64,000 nt of DNA from NCBI GenBank assembly GCA_017443465.1, contig JAFRXO010000062.1, forward strand, positions 1-64,000, in the 5' to 3' direction. This document shows positions 21,659-52,339 of this stretch, one piece after another. The notes below the pieces were generated by a model. The model made no database searches. It saw only the letters and a list, made by a program, of their open reading frames with translations, and was not told where the DNA came from. Numbering within the stretch: position 1 is the stretch's first letter; each line of letters begins with the position of its first letter. The position numbers and the translations under genes are program-made. This DNA comes from Bacteroidales bacterium (lineage in GTDB: Bacteria; Bacteroidota; Bacteroidia; Bacteroidales; UBA932).

Positions 21659-23422
21659 ATGAAAAAGATAATTCTGAGCATATGCATACTCACAGCTGCG
21701 GCCCTTACGGCCGCGGCCATTCCCGCGAATCCGCGTATTACCAAAGTCAGGCAGCCGGACGGCACAATGATATCCCTCAGGCTCCACGGAGACGAATTCT
21801 GCAGCTGGGGAACCACCCCTGACGGAAAGACTATGATGGCAGGAGAAGACGGTTTCTACAGGACTGTCTCCCCTTCCAGGATCAAGGAGGAAAGGACCCG
21901 CGCCAAATCACAGCGCTCAGCAAGGACATCCATCCGCAAGAATGCCCATGAAATCTCCACCGGGAACAAGAAATTCCTGGTAATCCTGGTGAATTTCAGT
22001 GACTTGAAGTTCAAGAAGGCCAATGAGGACTTCAACAAACTGATGAATCAGGCCGGTTACAGCGCTTACGGCGGAACCGGATCAGTCGCTGACTACTATA
22101 AGGACCAGTCTTCCGGCAAATTCAATCCTACCTTTGACGTCATCGGCCCTATAGATGTCAGCCGGGACATGCAATTTTACGGCAAGTCGCAGGGAAACTC
22201 CCATGACGCAAATCCTGGACAGATGGTTAAGGAAGCCGTCGATTCCATCTACAAAAAGGGACTCGTAAACTTCTCCGACTACGACAATGATTCGGACGGC
22301 TACGTGGACAATATCTACGTGTTCTACGCCGGCTACAGCGAAGCCAGCGGCGGCGGCGCGAATACCATATGGCCCCATTCTTCCTGGGTGAATTCCGACA
22401 CGGAATATGACGGTGTCAACATCGGTTCATATGCTTGCGGATCCGAACTCAAGGGCAACTCCGGTTCGGCAATGGACGGCATCGGCACTTTCTGCCATGA
22501 ATTCGGCCACGTACTGGGACTGCCTGATTTCTACGACACAGACTATGAGGATAATGGCGAAGGGGATGGCCTGCTGGCATTCTCCCTCATGGACAGCGGC
22601 TGCTACAACAATAACAGCAACACCCCGCCGAACATGAACGCCATCGAGCGCAACATGCTGGGCTGGATGGATGAGATCGAATACCTTACCGTTTCCGGCC
22701 ACAAGACCCTCAGGTCCATCGCAAACAATGTGTCCTACATCGCCCCCTCAGAAAACGAGGGTGAATTCTTCCTCCTCGAGGTAAGGGACGGAAAAGGCTG
22801 GGATGCCCACATTTACATGAGCTACTCCAATGGTGCTCCCGTGGGACCGACCGCTGCAGGACTGATTGTCTATCATGTGGACATGTCCGATAACATCGTG
22901 TATAGAAACTACTCTGCCAGATACCTCTGGGAGCACACTAACAGCATCAACTGCTTCGCCGACCACCAGTGCTTCTATGTATTGCCCTCCTACAGCGACT
23001 ACGACTATTACTATGATGCGATTCCTTTCCCGGGAAAATACGGAGTCACTTCCTTCACTGACACTTCCAATCCTTCCAACAAATTCTGGGACGGGAGTTT
23101 CAGCACCTGCAACCTGACAAACATTGAATATGCCAACGGCGAGGTTAACCTCGACCTCAAGGTTAAAGGTGACCTGACCGGAGTGCCTTTCAAGACCATA
23201 GCCATGCCAAAGGAAACATGGAAAGCAGGTGACACCTTCACCTTCCAGTTCGTCTCCGAGACAGCCGGAGGGGTCCCTGTCTCCACCGCATGGTACCTGG
23301 ATGACAGCCGCCAGAGCGCAGCATCTGTCAAGTTGACCTCCGGCAAGCACACCATCAAGGCAATAGCGACTTATTCCGACGGATCCACCGAAGAGGTGAT
23401 CCAGGTTATTAACGTTGAATAA
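21659..23422 (+). CDS. Secreted M6 family zinc metalloprotease
   Basis: A 587-residue exported endopeptidase. Its signal peptide is MKKIILSICILTAAALTAAA, and the pro-region PDGTMISLRLHGDEFCSWGTTPDGKTM is typical of M6 enzymes. The catalytic domain follows, with FLVILVNFSD, YYKDQSSGKFNPTFDVIGPI and the zinc site HEFGHVLGLPDFYD (about residue 280). SLMDSG is the Met-turn. The last 85 or so residues form a beta domain (FQFVSETAGGVPVSTAWYLDD), perhaps an immunoglobulin-like cargo domain. M6 enzymes of this group (InhA-like) cleave host or microbial proteins. Confidence 0.92.
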   Translation: MKKIILSICILTAAALTAAAIPANPRITKVRQPDGTMISLRLHGDEFCSWGTTPDGKTMMAGEDGFYRTVSPSRIKEERTRAKSQRSARTSIRKNAHEISTGNKKFLVILVNFSDLKFKKANEDFNKLMNQAGYSAYGGTGSVADYYKDQSSGKFNPTFDVIGPIDVSRDMQFYGKSQGNSHDANPGQMVKEAVDSIYKKGLVNFSDYDNDSDGYVDNIYVFYAGYSEASGGGANTIWPHSSWVNSDTEYDGVNIGSYACGSELKGNSGSAMDGIGTFCHEFGHVLGLPDFYDTDYEDNGEGDGLLAFSLMDSGCYNNNSNTPPNMNAIERNMLGWMDEIEYLTVSGHKTLRSIANNVSYIAPSENEGEFFLLEVRDGKGWDAHIYMSYSNGAPVGPTAAGLIVYHVDMSDNIVYRNYSARYLWEHTNSINCFADHQCFYVLPSYSDYDYYYDAIPFPGKYGVTSFTDTSNPSNKFWDGSFSTCNLTNIEYANGEVNLDLKVKGDLTGVPFKTIAMPKETWKAGDTFTFQFVSETAGGVPVSTAWYLDDSRQSAASVKLTSGKHTIKAIATYSDGSTEEVIQVINVE

Positions 23423-23423
23423 A

Positions 23424-24128
23424 ATGAAACACCTCCCCACATTAATTGCCGGAATAATGCTTCTGGCCGGTCTGGGCAGCGTCTCTGCCCAAGACAAGGA
23501 ATTCATACCCCTCGAGACATGGCCATATGTCTATGAATTCTTCTCCCCCGGGGAATTCACCAACTTCAAAGGTGATGTCACCCATCTGGAACTTCTGAAC
23601 GTCTGTGTCCATGACGGCAGGATCCACTTCGTGAAGAACGGGGTCATAATGGCCGCCGACCCGATAAACGTGGACGCCCTGACCATAGGAAATGACACCT
23701 ACTACAACATCCGCGGCAAGATGATGCGCCTGCTGAAAGCAGGGGAACATTCGAAAGTCCTCTGTTCCATAGGGATCAACCAGGCCGAAAGGGACAAGGT
23801 CCAGGTTGGATACGGAGAATCTTCCCTAGCCTCGACACAGAGCGTCGGCGCAGTCTCTATCAGTGGAGGAGACCTGCCGCCCTACACTCTCAACAAGAAC
23901 ATCCAGTCAAAGGATAAATACGACGGGCGTGAACTTCCCATCGCGGAAGAACTCTACCTGCAAGTTAACGGGTTCCTTTTCCGCGCCACAAGGAATGAAC
24001 TTCTGAACTCTCCCAGTCTGGACAAAAACGCAGTCAAGGATTTGTTCAAGAAGATCAAGCCTCGCTTCTCCGACGTGGAGTCCCTCTCTGAACTCGCTGA
24101 AGCTCTCAAAGACGCTATCGTAGAATAG
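23424..24128 (+). CDS. Exported protein of unknown function, partner of the M6 protease
   Basis: A 234-residue protein with a cleavable signal peptide (MKHLPTLIAGIMLLAGLGSVSAQ). No family is recognised. The middle (DGRIHFVKNGVIMAADPINVDALTIGNDTYYNIRGKMMRLL) suggests a beta-rich ligand-binding or inhibitor-like fold, and the C terminus is helical and charged. It starts 1 nt after the protease stop, so coupled expression is likely. A protease inhibitor, chaperone or substrate adaptor are open possibilities. Confidence 0.7.
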   Translation: MKHLPTLIAGIMLLAGLGSVSAQDKEFIPLETWPYVYEFFSPGEFTNFKGDVTHLELLNVCVHDGRIHFVKNGVIMAADPINVDALTIGNDTYYNIRGKMMRLLKAGEHSKVLCSIGINQAERDKVQVGYGESSLASTQSVGAVSISGGDLPPYTLNKNIQSKDKYDGRELPIAEELYLQVNGFLFRATRNELLNSPSLDKNAVKDLFKKIKPRFSDVESLSELAEALKDAIVE

Positions 24129-24141
24129 ATCGGCGCCATTC

Positions 24142-24265
24142 GCTTTCAGGCAGCTCTCCTCCTGAAACCTTCGCTTCGCTCATCCCACCACGCCATAACG
24201 GCGCGGTCCCCCGTTCACGAGGTCACGGGCGACCACGGGTTTCAGGAGGAGAGCTGCCTGAAAGC
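24142..24265. repeat. 124-bp palindromic element, intergenic copy
   Basis: 28-bp perfectly inverted arms (24142-24169 and 24238-24265) flank a 68-nt centre with further small stems (GGTC/GACC, CGCC/GGCG). The right arm includes the first base of the aroF stop codon. It lies between convergent genes and may act as their terminator. It has the same total length as the element at 51498-51621, and the two share ACCnTCGCTnCGC at the same offset (26-38). Confidence 0.9.
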
Positions 24266-25338
24266 TACTTCTGGGCGGCTACAGAGGCGTCGTGGATGGC
24301 GTTGAAAACCGCCTTGACGAAGTCTTCACTTAGGCCATACTCCCCGCCACGGCTGATTACTGACTCCAGGACCTTGTCCCAGCGGGAGGCCTGGACTATG
24401 GCCACATTGTTCTCCCTCTTGCACTGGCCTATGGCCCGGCTCACATCCATCCTCTGCTTAAGGGTGTAGAGAATGTTCTCGTCCAGGACATCGATCTGCG
24501 CGCGGAGCTGGGCGAGCCTCTCCTTGAAATCACTGCTCTCGGAATAGGTCTCGCGCACGACTATCTTGCCCAGCATATCCTTCACGGCAGCTGGAGTCAG
24601 CTGCTGGGCGGCGTCGGAGAGGGCGCAGGACGGATTGCAGTGCGATTCGATCATGAGACCATCCAGTCCAAGGTCAAGGGCCCTCTGGGAGAGCTCAAGG
24701 ATATAATCCCGCGATCCGCCCATATGGCTCGGATCCGCGAAGAACGGAAGCTCAGGATAGCGGGTGCGGAATTCCACGGCTATGTTCCAGCCGGGGGCGT
24801 TACGGTATTTCAGTTTCTCATTAGAGGAAAATCCCCTATGGATGACTCCAAGCTTGTGCACGCCGGCACGGTTGAGCCTCTCCAAGGCACCGATCCACAG
24901 ATCGATGTCCGGGTTGACCGGGTTCTTTACAAGAACCGGGATGTCCGTATCCTGCAGGGCATCAGCTATTTCCTGCATGAGGAAAGGATTGGCGCTCGTA
25001 CGGGCCCCTATCCAGACCATGTCTACATTATGCTTGATGCATTCGAAGACATGCCTCTCGCAGGCCACCTCGGTACATATCTTCATCCCGAGTTCGCGCT
25101 TTACCTTCTGCATCCACTTCAGGCCCGGCACTCCCACTCCCTCGAAGCTTCCGGGATGGGTACGCGGCTTCCATATGCCCGCGCGGAAAACATGTATTCC
25201 CAGGTCACTGAGGCCCTTTGCGGTCTCCATAACCTGCTCTTCGGTCTCGGCGCTGCACGGACCGGCTATTATCATCGGTTTCGGGAGGGTGAAGAACCCC
25301 CATTCATTCACAGGCGTAAGTTCAAGTCTTCGTTCCAT
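24265..25338 (-). CDS. aroF: DAHP synthase fused to chorismate mutase
   Basis: A 357-residue bifunctional enzyme. Residues about 1-265 form a type I-beta DAHP synthase: IIAGPCSAETEEQV, GIWKPRTHPGSFEG, KNPVNPD, GVIHRGFSS and the metal-binding FADPSHMGGSRDY. The C-terminal 85 residues form an AroQ chorismate mutase (LRAQIDVLDENILYTLKQRMDVSRAIGQCK). It catalyses the first shikimate step and the branch to prephenate, and the mutase domain often serves as feedback sensor. It is the last gene of the aromatic operon, 1 nt after tyrA. Confidence 0.95.
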   Translation of the reverse strand: MERRLELTPVNEWGFFTLPKPMIIAGPCSAETEEQVMETAKGLSDLGIHVFRAGIWKPRTHPGSFEGVGVPGLKWMQKVKRELGMKICTEVACERHVFECIKHNVDMVWIGARTSANPFLMQEIADALQDTDIPVLVKNPVNPDIDLWIGALERLNRAGVHKLGVIHRGFSSNEKLKYRNAPGWNIAVEFRTRYPELPFFADPSHMGGSRDYILELSQRALDLGLDGLMIESHCNPSCALSDAAQQLTPAAVKDMLGKIVVRETYSESSDFKERLAQLRAQIDVLDENILYTLKQRMDVSRAIGQCKRENNVAIVQASRWDKVLESVISRGGEYGLSEDFVKAVFNAIHDASVAAQK

Positions 25339-49757: not shown

Positions 49758-50981
49758 TCAGAACACCGGGGCTGAAGAGCCTCCGTCAACGGCGGCGGAG
49801 GGGATGACCGCGCCGCCCTGGTGCCCTGAATTGGATAGTTCCTGCGAAGCCCCCGGGATCCATTCCGGCTTTATGGTCACATTCACTGTCATCCCTTCCC
49901 CGTTATCGAAGACCATGCTCCCTCCGGACTCCCATTGAGGCCAGGTGTAGGACACGCTGCCACTTATCGCTCCCGTCCATTCGTCCGCCCCTCCCTTCGT
50001 CCTTATCAGGATGGAAGAGAATTCATACAGGTAATTGGGTTTGAGCGCAGGCAGGACTACATGCTGGTAGGAGTGACTTCCGTCAGAAGCATCCAGGAAC
50101 CTGAACACCAGGCAGGATACTCCGGCCTTTTCCCTGGCCGTGGGAAGATGTATGGTCTCGGAACCGGTGTTCCAGGGAGAATCGTTGGGGAAAGGATAGA
50201 AGTGCCACGGTCCCAGGCCGGAGGTTCTGGACAGGGTCCCCGGATCCACATATGAGGTCACCGCCCCGTTGCCGGACAGGGATGGCACTCCCCCGGATGT
50301 CTCGGACCAGCTGTTGAGGGTGGAAGTCCCGTACTCTACGGGAACCTGCAGGGCTCCGGTCCAGGAAGGGACCGCTGAATTCCTGGCATTCATGATGTAC
50401 ACAGCATCCAGGCGGACCGCCGAAGGGTCCAGGGTGCTGTCCTCCGAAAGAAGGACCTGGTCCACAAGGACCTTTGATGACCATCTTACCAGAGTGACGT
50501 TAAGGGATATGTCTCCCCTAACTACCGTCCTGGCCGCACCGGACATGGGAACCGCCTTGTAAGCTTCCACTTCATCCAGGGTCACCTCTTTCCCTAGAGC
50601 GGACTCCTCTTGATTAGCGGCATCCTCCGGGAAGGCATCGCAGTTCGCGAAGACATAGACCCTCCTTTCCCCTGCTGTGCAGGCGATTTCAAAACTCCTC
50701 GACGGAGAGATCCAGCCATCAAGCCCGTCAGAGGGGTCTGTGTCTCCTATCCTTTTACGGGCATCCAGACTCCCGTCAGGACGGAATATGCATATGTCCA
50801 GATAGCGGATTCCTCCCGAATTCTCGTCATATGCGACATCAGAACGCGTTGCGCAGGAAAGGGCCACCCTGATACGGGCACGCGCTGCTTCCGGCGAAGG
50901 CACGGCATCCTCCCTGGAGCAGGAGAAGGATATGATTGCAAGCAGCAACGCCGCTGCACCGAATTGTTTCCCGAAAATCAT
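49758..50981 (-). CDS. Fimbrillin family lipoprotein, second paralogue
   Basis: A 407-residue lipoprotein (LLLAIISFSCSREDAVPS). It is collinear with the 48562 gene: IRYLDICIFRPDGSLDARKRIGD, VYVFANCDAFPED, LNVTLVRWSSKVLVDQVLL and a C-terminal SYTWPQWESGGSMVF strand. It differs by a Pro/Gly-rich C terminus (VIPSAAVDGGSSAPVF). The start ATG overlaps the stop of the upstream gene by 4 nt. Confidence 0.82.
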   Translation of the reverse strand: MIFGKQFGAAALLLAIISFSCSREDAVPSPEAARARIRVALSCATRSDVAYDENSGGIRYLDICIFRPDGSLDARKRIGDTDPSDGLDGWISPSRSFEIACTAGERRVYVFANCDAFPEDAANQEESALGKEVTLDEVEAYKAVPMSGAARTVVRGDISLNVTLVRWSSKVLVDQVLLSEDSTLDPSAVRLDAVYIMNARNSAVPSWTGALQVPVEYGTSTLNSWSETSGGVPSLSGNGAVTSYVDPGTLSRTSGLGPWHFYPFPNDSPWNTGSETIHLPTAREKAGVSCLVFRFLDASDGSHSYQHVVLPALKPNYLYEFSSILIRTKGGADEWTGAISGSVSYTWPQWESGGSMVFDNGEGMTVNVTIKPEWIPGASQELSNSGHQGGAVIPSAAVDGGSSAPVF

Positions 50982-52339
50982 TTCCCCAGAATTTCAAAAG
51001 TCAGTTCCATATCTCCGAACCGGCCCGTGTCATCACTGTATTTCTCGAGCCAGGTCCTGGCCAGCGAACCTCTCCATACGATGTCGTCCCTGCTGTTCAG
51101 TGGGATCTCTATGTTGAATCCATATGTCTTGCTCTTGACTTTCACGTCGGCCGTGCACTTCCATGTGGTCATGGAGCCTCCGTCATCCTCTGTTATGAGG
51201 AAGGCGACGTTGTCCAGCTGCTCGCCCCAGTCGGAGACCAGCACCGCATTGAAAGGCAGTTTCTTCCCTATCTCGCTCCTCCTCACCACTACCATGAATT
51301 CGGTAACCGACGGAGAGTAGCGTCTCATTTCTTCCTCCGATTTGGCGTGGAAGCTCTCCACGGAGCCGCACCTGAAGAAGAACTCCGAGGCTCCGGCGAA
51401 CCACGTGTCGTAATTCCGGTTGGCCTTCAAGGTCTTGACTACCAGAGTCCTGAGCACGCTCTCATTGTTTTCGGCCTTAGTGCTTTCCGGTTCCAACGGC
51501 CTGGCAGCCTGTCCTCTCCAGGACCGTCGCTCCGCGACCCCTCCCGGTCCACGGACCGGGCCCCTCCCTCTTACACTACCGAGGGTGGCTATGGGTCCTG
51601 GAGAGGACAGGCTGCCAGGCCTCAACGGGGCATTCGAGCCCCCGCCCACCAGGATGGTACCTCCCTCACCGAAAGAAGGATCCTGACGGCGAAGCATTTC
51701 CAGCGATACATAACCGCCGTCAGTGTTTCTGTTAACTACCCAGACAGGACGCTTGAGGGCCATCTCCTCATCCACTACGACCTCTTCGACGCTCTTGTTA
51801 CCCTGCGCATCCTCCCTCACCACATAACCCGTGTTGGTGACCGCATCACCTTCCGGAGCATATGTTATCACCGGAGCGGTCCGGCCATCCCAATCATTTG
51901 AATACGGCCAGTAAATCTGTACGTCAGAAGAAGTCAGGGCCTTGACATAATCAGCAGCGCTCAGGACCTCCCCGGCCGCCTTCGTCCCTCCGGTCCTTTC
52001 GGCCTCCAGCAGATACTCTTGGATCAGCTCGCGCAGGGGACGGGCATATGTCTTCCCGGCCTTGGTCCCTTCAGTGTCACCGACTCCGGCACCGGGAGAA
52101 GCGAAAAGGTCGCTCATGGTGTACTCCTCGTCATATCCGTTCCCGGAAGAAGAGGTCACTGCATCATGCACCTCCCAGAGCTGCTCCTTCCCCAGGTCTA
52201 TCTCGGAAAGAATCATCGCTAACTGCTCCGGCCTTACCGGAGACTCCGTCTCCTCAGGCACCCCGTGATTGTCATCCAGCCTCTCGCATGCGGCCATGAC
52301 TGCAGCCGCGGCGATGAGGAAGAAAAAAGTTCTTTTCAT
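50978..52339 (-). CDS. Lipoprotein heading the fimbrillin operon, with an in-frame palindromic insert
   Basis: A 453-residue lipoprotein (FFFLIAAAAVMAACERLDD, Cys about residue 18). SSGNGYDEEYTMSDLFASPGAGVG and RPVWVVNRNTDGGYVSLEMLRR recall a Bacteroidales family of unknown function found beside surface proteins. Residues about 240-281 are encoded by a 124-bp palindromic element (51498-51621) and are Gly/Arg/Pro/Ser-rich, unlike the flanks; the reading frame stays open. The start at 52339 is backed by AAAGGAGAG 3 nt upstream. It is the first gene of the operon. Confidence 0.75.
   Translation of the reverse strand: MKRTFFFLIAAAAVMAACERLDDNHGVPEETESPVRPEQLAMILSEIDLGKEQLWEVHDAVTSSSGNGYDEEYTMSDLFASPGAGVGDTEGTKAGKTYARPLRELIQEYLLEAERTGGTKAAGEVLSAADYVKALTSSDVQIYWPYSNDWDGRTAPVITYAPEGDAVTNTGYVVREDAQGNKSVEEVVVDEEMALKRPVWVVNRNTDGGYVSLEMLRRQDPSFGEGGTILVGGGSNAPLRPGSLSSPGPIATLGSVRGRGPVRGPGGVAERRSWRGQAARPLEPESTKAENNESVLRTLVVKTLKANRNYDTWFAGASEFFFRCGSVESFHAKSEEEMRRYSPSVTEFMVVVRRSEIGKKLPFNAVLVSDWGEQLDNVAFLITEDDGGSMTTWKCTADVKVKSKTYGFNIEIPLNSRDDIVWRGSLARTWLEKYSDDTGRFGDMELTFEILGK
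51498..51621. repeat. 124-bp palindromic element inserted in a coding sequence
   Basis: 27-bp perfectly inverted arms (51498-51524, 51595-51621) enclose a 70-nt centre holding CCCGGTCC/GGACCGGG and GTCGC/GCGAC stems. CCAAC before and TCAAC after could be a 5-bp target duplication with one change; 124 + 5 = 129 nt would keep the frame. Length and the ACCnTCGCTnCGC block at offset 26-38 equal those of the 24142-24265 element. Confidence 0.92.

Follow-up and report, generated by a model that had tools for sequence, protein, structure and literature searches.

The closest described counterparts of the element reported here are the RPE of Rickettsia, palindromes of 105-146 bp which, in the accessible portions of two reports, occur in many copies and lie in-frame within conserved protein genes, and in-frame palindromes are described there as unusually frequent in this genus (PMC2229807, PMC10969869). 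In-frame fusions are also reported for the ERIC, YPAL and Correia MITEs in the available part of one of these sources (PMC2229807), and intragenic invertible regions are reported from gut Bacteroidales in the available part of another (PMC10939037). Judged by titles and the openings of abstracts, the literature gave no Bacteroidales counterpart of an in-frame palindrome and no counterpart among Cryptobacteroides palindromes. The element described below belongs to what genome comparison shows, at the level of sequence, to be a family with empty sites, an in-frame bias, mirrored arms and cores flipped between close species. Our best reading, to which we assign a probability of about 0.62, is a mobile, RPE-like in-frame palindrome that would also be invertible. 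The element would be one member of a dispersed family of mobile palindromes ~100-180 bp in size, having a conserved and pseudoknotted core and arms that are complementary and specific to each site. In-frame copies would be tolerated within protein-coding genes, like the Rickettsia RPEs, and recombination between the arms, or hairpin-templated copying, would keep each arm pair identical; the same process would also invert the core.

In the window, i.e. the whole 64,000-nt stretch of Bacteroidales DNA analysed, a perfect inverted pair occupies positions 51498-51621, with arms of 28 nt and 68 nt between them (Table 1). Base composition predicts about 2e-10 pairs of this kind (28 bp, loop 3-200 nt) in 64 kb, and the RNA fold of the minus strand over 51490-51630 has a z of -9.5 against 200 shuffles. 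The palindromic element at this position is confirmed as real; the preliminary description had given a 124-bp element with 27-bp perfect arms, and was right about the element but one nucleotide short on the arms. The second family copy in the window has the same geometry and unrelated arm sequence, and is intergenic, between the converging genes 23415-24128 (plus strand) and 24265-25338 (minus strand); its outer end abuts the stop codon of the latter.

Table 1. Positions of the element, its parts, its host gene and a second copy of the family in the window
Feature	Position	Strand	Description
Host lipoprotein gene	50978..52339	-	no stop across the element
Arm 1	51498..51525	+	28 nt, perfect complement of arm 2
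Core	51526..51593	+	68 nt; match to model R1 at 92.8 bits, and covariation over 102 copies
Hairpin P2 of core	51526-51538	+	positions read from sequence
Hairpin P3 of core	51543-51560	+	positions read from sequence
Stem P4 of core	51566-51570 with 51581-51585	+	positions read from sequence
Pseudoknot partner strand in core	51587-51592	+	positions read from sequence
Arm 2	51594..51621	+	28 nt, perfect complement of arm 1
Second family copy in window	24142..24265	+	28-nt perfect arms, 68-nt core

The host is a minus-strand ORF of 461 aa, which likely starts at the ATG at 52339 and reads through the element, the frame being open on both sides as first described. Its protein matches neither Pfam nor NCBIfam at E<=0.1. 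Homologues occur in 115 of 121 genus genomes; for most of the rows listed the match ends near residue 240 and a second match begins near residue 290, and a few rows match continuously across this gap. In an alignment of 29 related loci the linker is variable and the insert residues, as judged by eye, are absent; one of these loci (L096) has a long linker of a sequence different from the insert. A search of 400 genus genomes gave 11 that match at E<=1e-40, own genome counted, and only one of them (G423) matches both halves of the host gene, with 80-83% nt identity. This sister orthologue is shorter by 126 nt exactly at the insert position, so that the host gene gains 42 codons from the insert, which is probably translated. 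The dN/dS values of 0.113 upstream and 0.055 downstream of the insert indicate purifying selection on both halves, and this divergence may mostly be older than the insertion. By eye, the site in G423 carries a stretch resembling an arm at 14 of 18 nt, which fits the other arm about equally. The preliminary description had proposed aligning homologues without the insert, and had named as contrary cases homologues with the same residues in the absence of palindromy, and a broken host gene. Neither was found: the G423 orthologue lacks the insert, the 29 loci by eye have none of its residues, and the host gene is intact with selection on both sides.

A 5-bp target duplication (CCAAC/TCAAC), giving 129 nt or 43 codons in all, had also been suggested. 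These flanks differ at one base and the net length against the sister gene is 126 nt. Over 185 elements, exact 5-nt direct repeats abutting the arms number 0, against 0.135 in shuffles; on this and on the 126-nt difference from G423 a regular 5-bp target duplication was rejected. Exact 3-nt repeats at the arm edges are in excess in the 185 elements (10 against 3.6), as are repeats of 4 nt (26 against 14.9), 5 nt (10 against 4.4) and 7 nt (4 against 0.33) when the boundary may shift by up to 4 nt. This modest excess may reflect short target duplications at a minority of sites.

The element was searched genome-wide and in relatives, as the preliminary description had advised, with a covariance model (R1) built from five copies. 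In the own genome it has 26 matches at E<=1, of which 25 reach E<=1.5e-4, a family of about 25 copies. Matches were found in 32 of 61 genomes, namely 32 of the 37 in the genus and 0 of the 24 from other families of the order. The 37 genus genomes hold over 400 model matches, and within the family 18 of 79 genomes, from 8 of 25 genera with the own genus counted, have matches. A pattern scan of species genomes gave at least 118 matching stretches; those listed (80 titles) all come from Bacteroidales or broader Bacteroidia records, Candidatus Cryptobacteroides and Candidatus Coprenecus included. The many matches in the genus, together with close sister species, make insertion, loss and inversion comparable site by site.

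Several variants and outlying occurrences were also seen. In a viral collection the exact core pattern was matched by one stretch only (L385 10391-10455), on a contig that might be a vehicle, or else host DNA that was binned wrongly. A larger repeat of ~150-240 nt, present in several copies (L187-L206, in G087 and G098), includes a core with 10-nt arms and appears to be a derived family. A second core type (CCCCTGCCC...GTCCGGGGGTGGAC) stands at similar sites, dapF among them (L216, L205, L200), and four copies (L008, L009, L140, L165) have an extra hairpin-like stretch of ~40-50 nt within the core.

The preliminary description had called for a check of in-frame copies in other genes. Flanks were called coding by a codon model trained on 616 ORFs. 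Among 202 elements from a search that required arms, 41 are in-frame and open, 1 is in-frame with a stop and 11 have flanks on the same strand in differing frames; the rest lie between opposite genes (14) or have one coding flank (61), none (49) or flanks too short (25). With more genomes (252 elements), 67 have both flanks coding on one strand, and these comprise 49 in-frame open and 2 in-frame with a stop, besides 14 closed copies in differing frames, as expected for elements between genes, and 2 open ones in differing frames. A Pfam search with ten host proteins gave matches for nine (RrnaAD, DAP_epimerase, ATP_bind_3, DHQ_synthase, FAD synthetase with flavokinase, UPF0004 with Radical_SAM, SpoU methylase, Radical_SAM_N and EamA) and none for the tenth; the TilS-type and YgiQ-type domain matches extend across the insert. 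Read from these matches and the sequences, the hosts would include ksgA, dapF, tilS, aroB, ribF, mtaB and ygiQ. Elements were also seen (L185 in G087, and L284) in the linker of a gene which by eye has the look of a pyruvate dehydrogenase E2 lipoyl-domain linker. The sister without insert, the selection on both flanks and the other in-frame copies bear out the in-frame palindromic insert of the RPE sort that had been proposed. The strong structured RNA fold could suggest that the insert is removed by self-splicing or skipped by the ribosome, but this is very improbable, because a removed insert would need neither an open frame nor tolerance of orientation, while the copies have a strong in-frame-open bias and are inserted in both orientations; it was rejected on the frame and stop statistics.

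Sites with and without an element were found in close relatives. The dapF site is empty in close genomes, and the sister sites of L436, L441 and L442 are cleanly empty. At L481 one sister retains a truncated element, and stumps are left in sisters at L472 and L488 (18 nt, palindromic) and at L493 (27 nt). The elements are probably still mobile, and they presumably bring the host no benefit, being selfish or nearly neutral. At L224 (G247), the whole 27-nt left arm is found with neither core nor right arm in G313 (27/27) and G289 (26/27), a one-arm state that could be a remnant or a target. Such a lone arm, together with copies in G014 whose cores are near-identical (98% over the last 34 core bases) and whose outer arms are largely unrelated, would fit a scheme in which the host site already contains one arm, and insertion adds the other as its inverted copy. 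We consider this scheme improbable, since the empty sites at L436, L441 and L442 have neither arm, a single arm could be what a deletion left behind, as at L481, and the arms share weak motifs, e.g. GGCAG and GGAGG.

Two RAYT-like genes in the own genome score below the Pfam and NCBIfam cut-offs, and no match to model R1 lies in the 3.2 kb around each of them. One of them (L042 877-1785, G000 contig C5) has a 55-nt imperfect inverted repeat ~60 nt upstream (1845-1962). Its relatives occur in 90 of 151 genomes, but at E<=1e-10 none was found in G011, G016 and G027, which are rich in elements; a RAYT-like mobiliser thus appears unlikely.

In the 202 elements the arms have a median of 26 nt, 86 pairs are perfect and 3.8% of positions are mismatched, values which are conditional because detection required arms; in a stricter search 19 of 106 loci were without printed arms, loci without detectable arms being uncounted. 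Arm sequence common to all copies is confined to the inner end. When 64 same-site pairs from different species were compared, 391 arm positions had changed on both sides against 66 on one side, and 350 of the 391 are exact mirrors. The change is bursty, as some pairs with ~92% flank identity are unchanged and another (L400/L407) has ten mirrored changes in 24 arm positions. Such bursty mirrored change suggests that the arms are kept matched by copying one onto the other rather than by slow compensation.

The core was aligned from 102 matches (100 chosen sources, 99 distinct rows), and two-sided changes are found at 31 of its 36 pairs. Covariation scores 0.536 in this alignment, where shuffles give 0.151 and slid controls no more than 0.088. 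Five of the six helices were part of the model to which the alignment was fitted, the pseudoknot helix lying outside it; that helix has changes on both sides at 6 of 7 pairs and 87.6% of its cells paired, the pair at columns 148-223 being unpaired in most rows, and helix 2 has 75.3% of cells paired. Covariation thus supports a core that folds with a pseudoknot. The end of the core varies between copies, being GGCTACG or else GGCCACG or GGCCATG. In the printed orientation arm mismatches are 105 A.C against 32 G.T (p 3e-10), which implies retention of G-T/U wobbles on the opposite strand. With the printed strand as host message the counts still show this bias (19 against 2), and with host genes on the other strand it is 13 against 6, not significant. 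Its presence in genes whose message has the wrong strand shows that the carrier is not host mRNA, so the fold would act as DNA or in a separate transcript. The covariation, pseudoknot included, and the strand-biased mismatches are what a structured non-coding RNA or single-stranded DNA signal would give, with the fold selected and the coding insertions accidental. As a full account this is rather unlikely, as host mRNA is excluded and the element has no Rfam family at gathering score, its far lower matches being mostly to microRNA hairpins.

Both core orientations occur at 15 of the 33 sites that have two or more carriers among the species compared. At 90-99.5% flank identity, 20 same-site pairs have the same orientation and 14 the opposite (15 and 6 at core identity >=0.93); at 80-90% they are 21 and 6 (similar cores 9 and 1) and at 70-80% 25 and 14 (1 and 0), counts in which the pairs are partly non-independent and flank matches were grouped into sites by single linkage. 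Opposite pairs are a minority at core identity >=0.93 in the three flank bands (6/21, 1/10 and 0/1). In L416/L463, for example, an identical 63-nt core is reversed between flanks 92 and 99.6% identical, and the single mismatch between the arms has not moved with respect to the flanks, which puts the exchange inside the mismatch point.

A plain RPE- or MITE-like palindrome with no active inversion, whose mirrored arms and occasional flips are passive by-products of replication hairpins and too infrequent to be of consequence, or stem from repeated independent insertion at permissive loops, is somewhat unlikely, although it has several points in its favour. Small inversions are known in plastid DNA, with stem-loops as their cause, and offer a parallel. 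The dapF loop in related genomes has no element, one element or another in the opposite direction; this loop and the linker of a gene that by eye resembles an aminotransferase carry different elements in different species, and several opposite-orientation pairs have dissimilar cores. Some opposite pairs with different core subtypes may indeed be independent insertions at one permissive site, e.g. dapF. Against a plain palindrome, L410/L442 and L417/L427, like L416/L463, have identical or near-identical cores reversed between flanks 92-99.6% identical, and in-gene copies are open both ways more often than control frames. If flipping in cells is real, in-gene copies should be open in both directions; with the core flipped, 47 of 49 in-gene elements are open, compared with 338 of 489 control frames (p 2e-5), or per independent site 27 of 29 against 263 of 393 (67%; p=0.003); in the window host gene the flipped core is likewise open.

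Core flipping may be ongoing within populations, and inversion of the core would put a host gene in two states with different ~40-residue peptides. It is tempting to speculate, as a tentative extension, that the elements are self-spreading intragenic invertons that flip their core in living cells, with enzymes in two states and the pseudoknotted single strand as the recognition signal. If so, in-frame landing in housekeeping genes would make many basic enzymes two-state, with arms continually rewritten to mirror images. That the host keeps the element and uses the flip to switch a protein property is a doubtful proposal: conserved enzymes do stay open in both orientations and Bacteroidales invert DNA widely, with intragenic invertible regions reported in the accessible part of one source (PMC10939037), but the copies lie in unrelated housekeeping genes, many of them are flanked by coding sequence on one side or on neither, the arm sequence past the inner end is not common to all copies, and sister species without the element retain the gene.

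The conserved pseudoknotted core, the site-specific mirrored arms and the core inverted between species go beyond the preliminary description, the inverted core being new here. In-frame palindromes of the RPE kind would now be placed across a gut and rumen lineage of Bacteroidales, and two usually separate subjects, selfish in-frame repeats and invertible DNA, are joined. The family also offers a natural experiment on how well conserved enzymes tolerate an insert of ~35-60 residues, which may come in two alternative forms.

The element can be compared to several known systems. With REP/REPIN-RAYT, in the portion of the source available (PMC3733652), it shares small dispersed palindromic repeats and the presence of RAYT-like genes, here below cut-offs, but no GTAG or CGTC tag is found on every copy, and the RAYT-like gene is missing from some element-rich genomes. 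Like the coding-capable MITEs ERIC, YPAL and Correia it is short with terminal inverted repeats, but it has no regular target duplication and its terminal repeats mostly differ between copies. Intragenic invertons, or programmed gene-altering inversions, have reportedly been described by Chanin in 2024 and Milman in 2023; as in these, a segment that occurs in both orientations, here between species, is bounded within a gene by inverted repeats, whereas ours is a dispersed repeat family with a shared core and copy-specific arms. From the RPE, as described in the accessible portions of the reports, it differs in its phylum, its covarying pseudoknotted core, its site-specific mirrored arms and the inversion of its core between species; with them it shares a length of ~100-150 bp, palindromic structure, many copies and in-frame positions in conserved protein genes, so by analogy the RPE comparison appears apt as one of kind.
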